DNA from: Rubeoparvulum massiliense
GTDB lineage: Bacteria > Bacillota > Bacilli > Rubeoparvulales > Rubeoparvulaceae
Direction of reading: 5' to 3'
Length of the DNA: 64,000 nt
Assembly: GCF_001049895.1 (NCBI RefSeq)
Contig: NZ_CVPE01000005.1
Span: forward strand, 248,001 to 312,000
The notes beneath the pieces were generated by a model. The model was not told the origin of the DNA, ran no database searches, and saw nothing but the letters and a program-made list of their open reading frames with translations. Shown here one piece after another: positions 5,677 through 55,926 of the stretch. How positions within the stretch are numbered: position 1 is the stretch's first letter; each line of letters starts with the position of its first letter. Made by a program: the position numbers and the translations under genes.

Positions 5677-5732
5677 TGGGGGTCAGACCCCCACTAAGTT
5701 AATGCGTTAAAGCGGCGGGGGTCTGACCCCCA
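5677..5732. repeat. Dispersed double-palindrome repeat, copy R1 (subtype A)
   Basis: Left arm TGGGGGTCAGACCCCCA, AT-rich spacer with the core TTAATGCGTTAA, right arm GGGGGTCTGACCCCCA. Each arm is itself a near-palindrome, and the two arms are reverse complements of one another, so both small hairpins and one long hairpin are possible. It lies between the convergent cydB and padR genes, just after cydB. No T-run follows, so it is not a standard terminator by itself. Confidence 0.95.
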
Positions 5733-9548: not shown

Positions 9549-9602
9549 GGGGGTCAGTCCCCCATTGCTTTAACGCATTAACTTAATGGGGGACTGACCC
9601 CC
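9549..9602. repeat. Dispersed double-palindrome repeat, copy R2 (subtype B)
   Basis: Left arm GGGGGTCAGTCCCCCATT and right arm AATGGGGGACTGACCCCC are perfectly complementary over 18 nt; the core is TTTAACGCATTAAC. Compared with subtype A, one base in each arm is changed so that pairing is preserved. The 3' end of comFC lies inside this copy: its stop codon is in the core (9570-9572) and its last ten codons are repeat sequence. Confidence 0.95.
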
Positions 9603-10418
9603 TGCTCTGATCAATGTCAACCCATAAATCTGCCACTGAGGATAGCTTGCTTGTAGCACTTGCGCACAATGCTCCAACGTTGATCCTGTGGTATAGAGAT
9701 CATCGAGTAGCAATAGCTGACAAGGTTGATCAGGTTCAATTCCCATCAGTAACTGAGTTGGCAAAGGCAATGGTGCGAATGCTCCATCTAAACTCTGAAT
9801 ACGCCCTCCTCTCCCCTGCTTGCTCTGTTTTACCGTTGCCTTAACCCGCTGAAGGAGGGTGACCATCGGTAGATTCAGCTGTTTGGACAGGATTCTTCCC
9901 AGTAACTCCACTTGATTAAAGCCCCGCTCATAGAGACGACTCTCGTGCAGTGGCACATAGGTTAGAAGTTGAATGGATGGACGTGTGGCTTCCTTGGCAA
10001 AAACCCTGCTCCAGCCCTTCCACAGCGACCAGCTCTTGCCCTTAACTGAGGCGTCATAATACCGTTTAAATCCAAGTACCATCAGTTGACCAAAAAATGT
10101 GTATAATTGCACCTCCCCCCAATACTTGTAGCGATAAAGAAGTTGGCGATTTAGCGGATTATAGGTGAGGAGGCTACGTTGCCCATGAAGAACACTGCCT
10201 CTTCTTACAGCACAATCACCACAGCGTGCAGAGGAGAGATCACCCTCCATGGCACGTCCACAATGAACACAAGAAGGACCTTGGAGCCAGCCTAAGCCCT
10301 GCCAACAAGTATGGCAGATGGCCAATTCCCCCATTTGCCACTCGATTGCCCCTGGACGATATTGCTGTCCACAGGCGAGACATGAGATGGGACGAAGATA
10401 TACAGTCGATGATCTCAT
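9570..10418 (-). CDS. comFC: Competence protein ComFC, phosphoribosyltransferase family
   Basis: 282 residues. An N-terminal zinc finger (CLACGQQY, CHTCWQ, CVHCGRAM, CGDCAV) is followed by a phosphoribosyltransferase-like domain with the PRPP motif LLLLDDLYTTGSTL. ComFC acts in DNA uptake during competence together with ComFA. Its ATG overlaps the comFA stop (ATGA), showing translational coupling. The family core ends near GLTLIRA; the last residues GGQSPIKLMR and the stop codon come from repeat R2. The protein is longer than usual, with a basic insert near residues 115-140. Confidence 0.92.
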   Translation of the reverse strand: MRSSTVYLRPISCLACGQQYRPGAIEWQMGELAICHTCWQGLGWLQGPSCVHCGRAMEGDLSSARCGDCAVRRGSVLHGQRSLLTYNPLNRQLLYRYKYWGEVQLYTFFGQLMVLGFKRYYDASVKGKSWSLWKGWSRVFAKEATRPSIQLLTYVPLHESRLYERGFNQVELLGRILSKQLNLPMVTLLQRVKATVKQSKQGRGGRIQSLDGAFAPLPLPTQLLMGIEPDQPCQLLLLDDLYTTGSTLEHCAQVLQASYPQWQIYGLTLIRAGGQSPIKLMR

Positions 10419-18836: not shown

Positions 18837-18890
18837 TGGGGTCAGACCCCCACTACTTTAAAGCTTTAACGTTATGGGGGTCTGACCCCA
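18837..18890. repeat. Dispersed double-palindrome repeat, copy R3 (subtype A)
   Basis: TGGGGTCAGACCCCCA, spacer with palindromic core TTAAAGCTTTAA, then TGGGGGTCTGACCCCA; exactly 54 bp and almost perfectly symmetrical. It encodes the last 11 residues (GSDPHNVKALK) and the TAG stop of the HAD phosphatase. Confidence 0.96.
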
Positions 18891-19434
18891 CAAAGCAAAA
18901 AGGCATCCCTGCTGCTTTCGCTGCTAACCGATCATACTGGCTATCTCCTATCAGCACTGCTTCAGCAGGCTTGACCTGTAAATAGGAGCATGCTCGATAA
19001 AGTGGTTCCGGATCTGGCTTCCCACACCTCACATCATCTAACGTAATGATCACACTAAAGAACTCTTCCAGATCAAAGAGCTGCAATGCTCGGTTTGTAA
19101 GACTACGTGTCTTATTGGTCACCAACCCTAACTGATAGCCCTCCAGTGTTAACTGCTGAAGGATCTCCTCCACACCTGGGAAGAGCTGGACTGCTTCGTC
19201 ATGGTAACGCAGTGTGTATCGATTAAAATAGTCTAGCACCTCCTCTTTCCGTTCTGGGATCAACGAGGCAAGAAAAGGTTCAAATGCCATACCAAAACGT
19301 GCTTCCACCGCTTCGTATTCATAACGCTTGGGCATAAAATGATCCAGAGTATGATAAACAGCATCGACCACTAACTTTTTACTATCTAGTAATGTTCCAT
19401 CCAGATCAAAGAGTACAGTACGAATTTTTGACAT
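18853..19434 (-). CDS. HAD-family phosphatase, PpaX/Gph-like, C-terminus replaced by a repeat
   Basis: 193 residues from ATG 19434, which lies inside the end of glpP. HAD motifs are complete: FDLDGTLLDS (nucleophile Asp), VTNKTR, KPDPEPLY and GDSQYD. PpaX-type enzymes hydrolyse pyrophosphate or phosphoglycolate. Family members usually run about 20 residues further after the GMPF strand. Here the chain switches to repeat-encoded GSDPHNVKALK and stops, so repeat R3 seems to have shortened it. Whether activity remains is unknown. It is translationally coupled to glpP. Confidence 0.85.
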   Translation of the reverse strand: MSKIRTVLFDLDGTLLDSKKLVVDAVYHTLDHFMPKRYEYEAVEARFGMAFEPFLASLIPERKEEVLDYFNRYTLRYHDEAVQLFPGVEEILQQLTLEGYQLGLVTNKTRSLTNRALQLFDLEEFFSVIITLDDVRCGKPDPEPLYRACSYLQVKPAEAVLIGDSQYDRLAAKAAGMPFCFVGSDPHNVKALK

Positions 19435-20017
19435 CAGTAGGTAGCTCCTTCCATAATACTGGTGTCCCTGTGGAAACAGCCCTGGCACCATGACATAGCG
19501 CCAGCTTCATCTGCTCCTGGTTCTGTATTAGCCCTCCTGTTATCAGTGGATACTCTGTCTTGCTCCGTAAGTAATCAAGATAAGAGGGCAAAAGGGCTGG
19601 CATCACTTCTACTGCATCTGGTTGGTTCTCCTCTACCGATTGCAGTCCATGGTGCAGGGCATCATGGTCAATGAGAAACAGACGTTGGATGGTGAGTAGG
19701 CCCAAACGGTTAGCGAGCTTAATCATACTATTCTTCGTGCTGACAATTCCCGTTGGTTTGAGATAGGAGCTGAGGAAATGCATCCCTTCCTTGTCACAGC
19801 TTAATCCTCCGATTTTCTCCATGTGGAGGAAGACCAGCTTTCCTTCCTGCTGAAAGAGCTGCACATAACGCTTTACCACCCCAATATTGCCCGTCAATAG
19901 AAAGATGACGCGTGCTGGTGACGCTAGCGCTTTCTCTAAATGCCTTGCTTCTTTGACGGAGACGATGAGACGATCCTCTTCGATATAACGAATGAACTGG
20001 TCACGATACAGCTTCAT
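19406..20017 (-). CDS. glpP: Glycerol-3-phosphate-responsive antiterminator GlpP
   Basis: 203 residues. Typical GlpP sequence with VIFLLTGNIG near 35-45, VFLHMEKIGGLSCDKEGMHFL, GIVSTKNSMIKLANRLGL, EVMPALLP and PLITGGLI. GlpP binds glycerol-3-phosphate and leader mRNA to prevent termination at glp genes. A leader of just that kind stands 250 bp away in the divergent transporter operon, giving a self-contained regulatory unit. The HAD gene overlaps its 3' end by 29 bp. Confidence 0.93.
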   Translation of the reverse strand: MKLYRDQFIRYIEEDRLIVSVKEARHLEKALASPARVIFLLTGNIGVVKRYVQLFQQEGKLVFLHMEKIGGLSCDKEGMHFLSSYLKPTGIVSTKNSMIKLANRLGLLTIQRLFLIDHDALHHGLQSVEENQPDAVEVMPALLPSYLDYLRSKTEYPLITGGLIQNQEQMKLALCHGARAVSTGTPVLWKELPTDVKNSYCTL

Positions 20018-20118: not shown

Positions 20119-20172
20119 TGGGGTCAGACCCCCATTACATTAAAGCGTTAAATCGATGGGGGTCTGACCCCA
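20119..20172. repeat. Dispersed double-palindrome repeat, copy R4 (subtype A)
   Basis: TGGGGTCAGACCCCCA, spacer with core TTAAAGCGTTAA, TGGGGGTCTGACCCCA; 54 bp. It is the only full copy not attached to a gene end. It lies between the divergent glpP and ugp operons and ends 4 bp before the proposed -35 box of the transporter promoter. Confidence 0.96.
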
Positions 20173-23650: not shown

Positions 23651-24697
23651 TTGAATCATCATAGGAATTGGAAGTTAGGAAAATGGGGGCGCTGGGGAGC
23701 TGCTTTACTCATCCCTCTCCTCGCCCTGATTCTCCTCGTATTCACTGGGGTTCTTGATGGAAAGGATGGAGAGGATCAAGGGGATCACATCTCAGCCTCT
23801 GTGGAATTATCTGCTGATGGGCTTGGGCTGACGGGTGAAGGAGAACTCGCAGCAGGAGAGGAACAAAATCAGGATTTTATCCAGCGCTTCTTCAATCCGG
23901 AATTATCCAATGGTCAGCTACAGATACGATATTTCCACCTGGAAGCCGAAGAGAAGTCGGGGGATGCCATCTTAATTCATGCTCCCAATGGCGAAACGAT
24001 GCTGATTGATGCAGGTATCAAGGAGGTGGGTCCCAAGGTAGCAGAGTATTTGCAACAGCTGGGATTGACGCATCTTGACTATGCAGTGGCAACCCATCCC
24101 CACCATGACCATATTGGTGGCTACACTACCCTTTTGCGAACGCTGGAAATCAAACAATTTTTAACGGTGAATGTGCCCCACACCACAGAGACCTATAAAT
24201 CGGTGGTAGCTCTCCTGGAAGAACGGCAAATTCCGGTGACCTATTTAGAAGAGGGAGACCTTTTACAGTTAGGCGAGGAGGTAACCATCGAGGTTCTGAA
24301 TCCACCGAAGGGGACAGGTCCATCCACCCTGCCAGCTGAGTTAAGCACTTCCACTATCAACAACCATTCCCTGGTCATGCGCTTAACCTATGAGGATCAG
24401 AGCATCCTTTTTACAGGGGATATTTATAAAGAGCGGGAGTATGATCTGGTAGAACGCCTTGGTCCGAAGCTGCAGGCAGATGTGTTAGATGCACCTCACC
24501 ATGGGGATAAGACCTCCTCTTCCAAGTCCTTTATTACAGCAGTTCAGCCTAAATACGTTATTATGAGTGCCAACCTTTTTCAGAGCAAGGCTGTTTACGA
24601 TCGCTATCGAAAGCAGGATATTGATGTCTTTATCACCGGTATAGATGGACATCTTTTAATAACTTGGGGTCAGACCCCCACTGTGTTAAAGCGTTAA
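23651..24697 (+). CDS. Membrane-anchored metallo-beta-lactamase-fold protein, ComEC C-terminal type
   Basis: 348 residues from TTG 23651 with TTAGGAGGTGA upstream. An N-terminal membrane anchor (about 12-34) is followed by a metallo-hydrolase domain with the metal motif ATHPHHDHIGG, a second histidine NNHSLVMRL, the aspartate FTGDI and a late DAPHHG. Similar domains stand at the C-terminus of ComEC and in secreted single-domain hydrolases that attack phosphodiesters. It is 23 bp after ugpE and may belong to that operon, perhaps releasing phosphate esters outside the cell (inference). The last residues GQTPTVLKR and the TAA stop are encoded by repeat R5. Confidence 0.85.
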   Translation: MNHHRNWKLGKWGRWGAALLIPLLALILLVFTGVLDGKDGEDQGDHISASVELSADGLGLTGEGELAAGEEQNQDFIQRFFNPELSNGQLQIRYFHLEAEEKSGDAILIHAPNGETMLIDAGIKEVGPKVAEYLQQLGLTHLDYAVATHPHHDHIGGYTTLLRTLEIKQFLTVNVPHTTETYKSVVALLEERQIPVTYLEEGDLLQLGEEVTIEVLNPPKGTGPSTLPAELSTSTINNHSLVMRLTYEDQSILFTGDIYKEREYDLVERLGPKLQADVLDAPHHGDKTSSSKSFITAVQPKYVIMSANLFQSKAVYDRYRKQDIDVFITGIDGHLLITWGQTPTVLKR

Positions 24698-24719
24698 ATC
24701 ACTGGGGGACTGACCCCCT
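24665..24719. repeat. Dispersed double-palindrome repeat, copy R5 (A/B hybrid)
   Basis: The left arm TGGGGTCAGACCCCCA is subtype A, the right arm TGGGGGACTGACCCCCT subtype B, so one base pair of the long stem is mismatched. The core TTAAAGCGTTAA at 24686-24697 contains the stop codons of both convergent genes: RAYT on the minus strand and the MBL protein on the plus strand. Confidence 0.95.
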
Positions 24720-25255
24720 TCTTCAATAAACTTCCGATACTGCTCTCTTTGTGGTTCAGAAAAATAGGAGAAGGTTTTTGTAGTGGTGATATAGGGGTTT
24801 TTTCGACCAAAAAAGTAGGCTGCATAGCTACTCCAAGGGTACTCTTCAGCTTTTTTCACCATTTGAGCTTCCAATGGATTACGGTGAATATATCGACTAA
24901 CAGTAAGGAAGTATTCATCATTTTTTACTAACTTTGCACCGTATCGTCCTTGAAATAGATGGCCGACTAAGTCATGACGCTTGTTAAATGCTAGAGCATA
25001 GCTGGCATGCCATTTTTTCATAATCAAACCTGGAGGTGTCTCTAAAGTTTCGAGTAGAAGATGAATGTGATTGGGCATGAGGCAATATGCGTGGAGAATG
25101 AAGGGGAATTCCGTGCGGGTCTCTTTCAGTAAAGCGAAATACTTCCGATAATCCCTTTGATCATGGAACAACGAAGAACGTCGATTTCCACGTGCAGTAA
25201 TATGGTAGATGGCACCTGGAAACCATATCCTCGGCTTTCGTGCCAACTTCATCAT
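24686..25255 (-). CDS. REP-associated tyrosine transposase (RAYT, Y1_Tnp HUH family)
   Basis: 189 residues. The HUH nuclease motif is H63-I-H65 in CLMPNHIHLLLE, and the catalytic tyrosine is Y122 in SRYIHRNPL. The RAYT opening GAIYHITARGNRR and LFQGRYGAKLV are also present. RAYTs nick and join single-stranded DNA at REP palindromes, with which they are genetically linked. This gene is boxed by repeat R5 (inside its 3' end) and R6 (18 bp before its ATG). Its last ten residues GGQSPSDLTL are encoded by R5. The gene has no IS ends, so it looks domesticated rather than a free IS200/IS605 element. Confidence 0.92.
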   Translation of the reverse strand: MMKLARKPRIWFPGAIYHITARGNRRSSLFHDQRDYRKYFALLKETRTEFPFILHAYCLMPNHIHLLLETLETPPGLIMKKWHASYALAFNKRHDLVGHLFQGRYGAKLVKNDEYFLTVSRYIHRNPLEAQMVKKAEEYPWSSYAAYFFGRKNPYITTTKTFSYFSEPQREQYRKFIEEGGQSPSDLTL

Positions 25256-25272
25256 CCTTTCATTTGTATTTA

Positions 25273-25325
25273 GGGGTCAGACCCCCACTACGTTAAAGCT
25301 TTAACGTGATGGGGGTCTGACCCCA
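25273..25325. repeat. Dispersed double-palindrome repeat, copy R6 (subtype A)
   Basis: GGGGTCAGACCCCCA, spacer with core TTAAAGCTTTAACG, TGGGGGTCTGACCCCA; 53 bp. It ends 5 bp after the metK stop codon and begins 18 bp before the RAYT start, so it is both the 3' flank of metK and the 5' region of the transposase gene. Confidence 0.95.
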
Positions 25326-28255: not shown

Positions 28256-28316
28256 TGGTTCGTGATAGTTGAGTGCCCAAGGGTGGTTGGCACGCTCCCA
28301 GAAAGGGGGTGATGCC

Positions 28317-28412
28317 ATGACGGATTATGAGACGCTATCCATCGTTATGTCAACATTAACGTTGATGATAACTTTTGGAATGTTGGTTGCGGTCTTGTCC
28401 AAAAAGAAGTGA
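28317..28412 (+). CDS. Small hydrophobic toxin, Hol-Tox/BsrG-like (type I TA)
   Basis: 31 residues: starts MTDYETLSIVMS, has one membrane helix (LTLMITFGMLVAVL) and ends in a Lys triplet. This pattern (M-T-x-Y-E-x-L, helix, basic tail) is that of the holin-like type I toxins of Bacillota. GGGGGTGAT precedes the ATG. The 5' leader segment 28275-28284 (GCCCAAGGGT) is perfectly complementary to 28416-28425 just after the stop, a 5'-3' lock typical of such toxin mRNAs. An antisense promoter stands downstream. Confidence 0.85.
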   Translation: MTDYETLSIVMSTLTLMITFGMLVAVLSKKK

Positions 28413-28535
28413 CCTACCCTTGGGCCAAAGGTAGGTCGCGGCTAATTTCTTGCGGTACTGCCAACTCCCTTGGGAGTCGCTATTACGTGCCGAAGGTGTT
28501 CACGCACCTTCGGTCTTTTTATTATATGTTCTATT
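28400..28535 (-). ncRNA. Predicted antisense antitoxin RNA of the type I locus
   Basis: A minus-strand promoter TTTACA (28565-28570), 17-bp spacer, TATACT (28542-28547) should start an RNA near 28535. It would run into the toxin mRNA 3' region and end at the hairpin GACCTACC / GGTAGGTC (28411-28437), followed on this strand by CTTCTTTTT. About 135 nt long, fully complementary to the 3' part of the toxin transcript. This mirrors bsrG/SR4. Expression is inferred. Confidence 0.65.
28490..28520 (+). terminator. Terminator of the toxin mRNA
   Basis: Stem CCGAAGGTG / CACCTTCGG with a 6-nt loop and TCTTTTT. The toxin transcript would be about 260 nt. Confidence 0.85.
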
Positions 28536-53570: not shown

Positions 53571-53594
53571 TCGAATATGGTAGTTCTCTTCTTT
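53551..53594. terminator. Bidirectional hairpin joined to half repeat R7
   Basis: A perfect 18-bp stem AAAGAAGAGAACTACCAT, loop AATCGAAT, and its complement. It contains the stop codon of the DUF1643-like gene and continues without a gap into the AT core of a half repeat. Confidence 0.8.
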
Positions 53595-53640
53595 AATGCT
53601 TTAACGCAGTGGGGGTCTACGCAGTGGGGGTCTGACCCCT
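53591..53640. repeat. Half copy R7 of the dispersed repeat with internal duplication
   Basis: Only the AT core (TTTAATGCTTTAACG) and the right arm are present; the right-arm block ACGCAGTGGGGGTCT occurs twice in tandem (53604-53618, 53619-53633), then GACCCCT. Its edge, read on the minus strand as TAGGGG, forms the stop codon of the nucleotidase gene. Confidence 0.85.
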
Positions 53641-55892: not shown

Positions 55893-55926
55893 TTTACCGC
55901 TTTAGTGGAGTGGGGGACTGACCCCT
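55892..55926. repeat. Half copy R8 of the dispersed repeat (subtype B arm)
   Basis: AT core CTTTACCGCTTTAG followed by the right arm TGGGGGACTGACCCCT. The edge read on the minus strand (TAGGGG) supplies the stop codon of the split stalk-domain gene. Confidence 0.85.

Follow-up and report, generated by a model that had tools for sequence, protein, structure and literature searches.

The window, a 64,000-nucleotide stretch of the Rubeoparvulum massiliense genome, probably carries a REP-associated tyrosine transposase (RAYT) together with a cognate population of REPIN-like repeats. A single RAYT gene is bracketed by two 52-bp inverted dimers, each built as hairpin, TTAAnGCnTTAA core and hairpin, and further copies of the dimer are dispersed through the window (Table 1) and the genome. 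The core idea of the sequence-only reading of this DNA, a RAYT with its own repeat system, is supported by the copies, by their co-occurrence with the gene across Bacilli and by covariation between the two. To our knowledge, nearly all work on REP/RAYT biology concerns proteobacteria.

Table 1. The RAYT gene and the repeat copies found in the window.
Feature	Coordinates	Strand	Remarks
RAYT (REP-associated tyrosine transposase)	24686..25255	minus	189 aa, ATG start, short form without C-terminal HTH
R5, complete dimer	24666..24717		overlaps both the RAYT stop codon and that of the convergent ORF 23651-24697
R6, complete dimer	25273..25324		17 bp upstream of the RAYT start; left arm with GTAG foot
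Dispersed dimer	5679..5730		between convergent genes
Dispersed dimer	9550..9601		provides ORF 9570-10418 (-) with its stop codon
Dispersed dimer	18838..18889		provides ORF 18853-19491 (-) with its stop codon; left arm with GTAG foot
Dispersed dimer	20120..20171		between divergent genes (the sole such case among 19)
Single arm	53627..53639	plus	core partial; inner half duplicated
Single arm	55913..55925	plus	core partial and degenerate

The window gene is a RAYT by every feature tested: motifs, family model, fold, low copy number and flanking repeats that are dispersed genome-wide. Y1_Tnp (PF01797, 52 bits) is its sole Pfam domain. In NCBIfam, the equivalog NF047646, 'REP-associated tyrosine transposase', scores it at 82.5 bits, barely above the cut-off of 80. 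The HIH motif and catalytic Y122 were already recognised in the sequence-only reading, and H63-I-H65 and Y122-xxx-N126-P127 (HIH, YIHRNP) prove invariant across an alignment of 46 short RAYTs. The AlphaFold model has a pLDDT of 94.9, and a fold search of the PDB with this model places 4er8, the E. coli TnpA-REP in complex with a REP hairpin, at the top (E 3.9e-9), ahead of the TnpA proteins of IS608 and ISDra2. A search of the whole 2,843,796-base genome finds the gene once. The protein shares the Y1 HUH fold with IS200/IS605 TnpA; however, it occurs in single copy, neither the Y-x-x-x-Q motif nor a TnpB partner is found at the locus, which has Y-IHR-NP instead, and the flanking hairpins are inverted rather than directly oriented. 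The window RAYT also lacks the long protein with a C-terminal HTH/DnaA_C domain that is a feature of TIRYTs. Its last residues, GQSPSDLTL, are encoded by the repeat itself (24686-24717); the corresponding residues at locus L043 are GQSPITLK.

Other Y1_Tnp genes of the genome were considered as mobilisers of the repeats and rejected. The further matches comprise three IS200/IS605 elements and one sub-threshold match of 29 residues, and the full matches are tnpA-tnpB relics, not RAYTs. Near-identical IS200/IS605 copies lie at C6:515 kb (L031), C6:693 kb (L032) and C3:193 kb (L034), with a tnpA frame that continues into tnpB (open frames of 432-449 aa) or ends before it.

The repeats had been described as two arms around a TTAA core, and this arm-core-arm architecture stands; the core is more precisely TTAAnGCnTTAA, and each arm is asymmetric, with a fixed outer half GGGGTCAG and an inner half that varies in A/T. 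Both dimers at the gene, one in its 3′ end and one just before its start, and the four dispersed full units lie where they had been placed, and the half copies listed at 53591 and 55892 are single arms, each with a partial core. Exact arms of the form GGGGWCTGACCCC number 14 in the window, compared with 0.01 expected from shuffles. When 48 arms from the whole genome are aligned from the core outward, they read TTAA.GC.TTAA, a foot G[TC][AG]N, TG and GGGG[A/T]CTGACCCC; conservation ends at the outer CCCC and nothing beyond it is conserved, so that the unit has a sharp outer edge and a conserved inner side. Read in the same direction, the arm (GYRN-TG-GGGGW-CTG-ACCCC) has the layout of a short REP, with a foot, a stem of ~5 bp and a small loop. 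Most dimers have arm starts 39 bp apart; there are also units of 44 and 60 bp. Every dimer, folded as single-stranded DNA, greatly exceeds its shuffles in stability (z -5.3 to -9.5). The earlier statement that the unit has no GTAG was too strong: two nucleotides before the hairpin, a GYRN foot is present in 30/48 arms genome-wide versus 2/48 in a mirrored outer control, with exact GTAG in five arms and GTGG in two (GT[AG]G in 7/48), counts that are descriptive rather than a test, since the copies share ancestry.

In the genome as a whole, the strict arm form GGG[AGT][AT]CTGACCC occurs 48 times, and dimers number 18 by one pattern or 19 by a looser one, with 0 hits for the pattern controls. The anticipated tens to hundreds of intergenic copies thus hold as tens, mostly extragenic and located at gene 3′ ends, but not as hundreds. 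This abundance is below that of canonical REPs, which usually exceed 100 copies per genome (PMC2817692). Judged against a non-curated annotation of ORFs of at least 80 aa with the longest kept, 18 of the 19 dimers either are extragenic or reach into an ORF 3′ end, and the remaining one lies within the last codons of an ORF. Eight dimers supply the stop codon of an ORF (both strands of the core contain TAA), no dimer overlaps a start, and only one is located between divergent genes. Such placement, combined with strong hairpins, would fit a regulatory palindrome retained for its effect at gene 3′ ends, such as a transcription terminator or a hairpin that stabilises mRNA, with the RAYT as a bystander. 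Alignments of the genome-wide arms, however, show no regular T run after them, and the arms gather at RAYTs in many genera, co-occur with them and covary with them in their letters, which is unexpected of a terminator. We therefore regard a purely regulatory palindrome as improbable, while a terminator role may accompany the RAYT-associated repeats as a secondary effect.

The arms are unevenly distributed. Within 60 kb of the RAYT, which amounts to 4% of the genome, lie 26 of the 48 arms. A similar concentration is seen in genome G291, where 24 of 71 arms are on the RAYT contig, whose length of 99 kb is taken from the record of locus L040, which has an identical RAYT neighbourhood and is assumed to be the same genome. 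In Marinomonas, REPs are likewise concentrated near their RAYT, which has been interpreted as recent arrival (PMC8266576). Additional clusters distant from the gene (C3 203-210 kb and C6 700-702 kb; C55 of G291) indicate that the clustering resembles local spread in general, beyond the surroundings of the RAYT.

We compared the gene and its flanks with 80 relatives from a scan of GTDB genomes; the host's own order was dropped as a comparison group because it contains only this genome. Relatives outside Bacillota are mostly long (~230-350 aa), and three of the four tested have an HTH_23/HTH_28 or Bac_DnaA_C domain. Most of these long relatives, from many phyla, are flanked by inverted repeats that start with GGGGTCAG or a near-match. 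They fit the TIRYT genes (PMC3733652) and subclass 2.1 (PMC6006769), and the GGGGTCAG end of the window arms is the TIRYT signature, which the sequence-only reading had missed. In a Bipolaricaulota MAG, two long-RAYT copies (L080 and L083, 90% identical) are homologous exactly from TIR to TIR, from -45 to +3, suggesting that long TIRtron elements move as a TIR-gene-TIR unit. As a separate observation, a Thermotoga-labelled MAG contig (L096) and a Bipolaricaulis-labelled one (L097) share 93% identity along the 4.7 kb surrounding the RAYT, a likeness that points to mis-binning or recent transfer.

The Bacillota relatives are mostly short (~180-200 aa) and lack the HTH. Short Bacillota forms adjoin the long ones in a tree with an unreliable root and many open forks; E. 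coli RayT, used as outgroup, sits on a very long branch. The flanks of the short relatives carry arms of one motif family, GGKGNCWGNCMCC, at most 300 bp away in 34/54 loci. Within 300 bp of the short relatives, palindromic arms reach a density of 1.94/kb, compared with 0.275/kb at 0.7-3 kb; far from the long relatives the density is 0.012/kb. Using a 350-bp limit and slightly looser ends, both flanks carry arms in 28/55 short-RAYT loci, and an arm lies inside the RAYT 3′ end in 10/55, as it does in the window. Dimers of other genera are laid out alike, in most cases around a TTAA core and with a GYRN foot, and four of ten feet in genome G362 are GTAG or GTGG.

The shared end sequence raises the possibility that the repeats are simply the TIRs of an autonomous RAYT element, a TIRtron, with the dispersed dimers as deletion relics or abutting ends and without REPIN-like spread. 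The outer half GGGGTCAG matches GGGGWSAS, the consensus of TIRs (PMC3733652), and both the TIRs of the long relatives and the exact TIR-to-TIR homology in the Bipolaricaulota MAG agree with this explanation. Against it, each RAYT flank is a whole dimer rather than a half, and one RAYT stands opposite ~19 complete dimers with a conserved core and a mostly constant 39-bp spacing, so that the dimers resemble units in their own right. We consider the TIRtron explanation unlikely, albeit the strongest of the alternatives to a RAYT with a REPIN-like repeat population.

Among 399 Bacilli genomes, 50 contain a RAYT relative. Two dimer patterns, both widened after inspection of the flanks of RAYT loci, were searched in the same set. 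Pattern GGGGNCWGNCCCC-N12-40-GGGGNCWGNCCCC is found in eight genomes, seven with a RAYT, and GGTGCC-type dimers in seven genomes, all seven with a RAYT. Combined, dimers occur in 12 genomes from 12 genera, and 11 of these carry a RAYT (Fisher p 4.6e-10 among genomes that are non-independent; controls gave 0). Since the patterns were fitted to RAYT flanks, differently lettered repeats of RAYT-less genomes may escape them. By these two patterns, 39 of the 50 RAYT-bearing genomes have no dimer. Arm sequence also covaries with the RAYT, as had been predicted: across 40 short relatives, arm distance grows with RAYT distance (Mantel r 0.42, 0/5000 permutations), and the correlation persists after dereplication at 65% identity (r 0.39, 2/5000 permutations). 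Shared host ancestry can contribute partly to both the covariation and the co-occurrence.

The expectation that repeats would be found only where a RAYT is present held for 11 of the 12 dimer-bearing genomes, and equal abundance without the gene was not seen; G219 is the exception. This genome has nine orphan dimers of the GGGGACAGTCCCC form (L164, L165 and L166) and no match to the RAYT model even at E<=10. Three sampled congeners have no RAYT at E<=1e-10, and in its family the gene is present in 16/29 genomes. A RAYT remnant beside the orphan repeats was looked for in three 20-kb stretches and rejected, as only the arm-encoded peptide GQSPS matched. On the simplest reading, the G219 repeats would be orphans left after loss of the RAYT.

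Repeats in a genome without a RAYT would also be compatible with MITEs of another, DDE-type transposase that merely insert near RAYTs, and terminal palindromes and dispersal are MITE-like as well. Yet no target-site duplication is visible at the unit boundaries, the RAYT is the only gene that sits between copies, and the motif family tracks RAYTs across many genera. An origin as MITEs is thus the least credible of the explanations, and very improbable. MITEs such as bcr1 of Bacillus cereus, compared here by description, are likewise short dispersed elements in Bacilli and are unrelated in their partner gene.

The near-constant presence of the gene in repeat-bearing Bacilli, and hairpin letters that vary with it, make it most likely that the RAYT maintains and spreads the repeats. 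In TnpA-REP, a single-stranded foot and hairpin are recognised and the tyrosine cleaves (PMC8266576). From this biochemistry we infer that the RAYT would bind and nick its own arms, and hence spread or maintain the dimers. The identity of the gene, the anatomy of the repeat, its copies across the genome, their clustering, and the co-occurrence and covariation are direct observations; movement and the direction of causation are inferred. In the putative mechanism, the unit would become single-stranded on the lagging-strand template or in a repair or transcription gap, allowing the arm to fold. The HUH enzyme would bind the hairpin and foot of the arm and nick with Y122, and the unit, bounded by its two outer GGGG/CCCC edges, would be copied or pasted into a new single-stranded site, usually extragenic and often nearby. 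The enzyme gene would stay single-copy, with its own repeats flanking it and recurring in its 3′ end. In species pairs of Fictibacillus (L057/L061) and Sediminibacillus (L058/L059), most repeats occupy common sites and some differ, so movement, if any, would be slow; neither comparison yielded a clean pair of filled and empty sites.

Among known systems, the TIRYT/TIRtron branch is nearer to the window system than classical GTAG REPs are. TIRYT genes have TIRs with GGGGWSAS, and some of their TIR families occur in dimers (Di Nocera et al. 2013, PMC3733652); RAYT group 1 corresponds to TnpA-Y1 subclass 2.1 (PMC6006769). The window system has in common with them an enzyme of the RAYT-like HUH/Y...NP type, inverted repeats on its flanks that carry GGGGWSAS, here GGGGTCAG, nearest relatives outside Bacillota of the TIRYT type, and the dispersal as dimers known from some TIR families. 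In contrast to TIRYTs, the window protein, like its Bacillota relatives, is short (~180-200 aa) and without HTH, the flanks are complete arm-core-arm dimers, and the arms are self-complementary and diversified (GGGGTC, GGGGAC, GGGGCC, GGTGCC).

With the REPINs of canonical REP-RAYT systems (groups 2 and 3; PMC8266576, PMC3116915), the repeats share a unit made of an inverted pair of short hairpins, an extragenic location and a single RAYT flanked by its own repeats. The Marinomonas REPtron Mb (REP-Mb, PMC8266576) is similar in having its foot 2 nt from a stem of ~5 bp and its copies concentrated near the RAYT. However, the foot here is a degenerate GYRN that faces the core, and 48 arms are present rather than hundreds. 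The GTAG-reading region of the E. coli protein, WQPRFWEH, is only partly conserved in the window RAYT, as FQGRYGAK.

The locus is best placed in a branch of short Bacillota RAYTs close to the TIRYTs, one that lacks the helix-turn-helix and has a REPIN-like population of repeats. More broadly, we tentatively propose that the short HTH-less RAYTs of Bacillota may form a separate RAYT system, a reading that is slightly less likely than not. In such a system, TIRtron-type terminal repeats would have turned into free-living REPIN populations, the arm alphabet (GGGGTC, GGGGAC, GGGGCC, GGTGCC) would co-evolve with the enzyme, and spread would be mainly local, often near the RAYT, making the group an evolutionary bridge between TIRtrons and REPINs. 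A literature search on the arm sequences and on TIRYT returned only the 2013 and 2018 papers as relevant and no description of this system; a mention in Bertels et al. 2017 is possible.

Gram-positive systems in which the enzyme and the hairpin letters covary offer natural enzyme-substrate pairs from which a recognition code could be read. Several of these systems are in cultivable Bacillaceae, so whether RAYTs move or maintain REPINs is directly testable there. They also suggest a route by which a transposase gene's terminal repeats can become a repeat population of their own. In Rfam, the repeats match no RNA family, and the only match in the window is BsrG (RF01412) at 28261-28512 on the plus strand, with 72.2 bits against a gathering threshold of 55.
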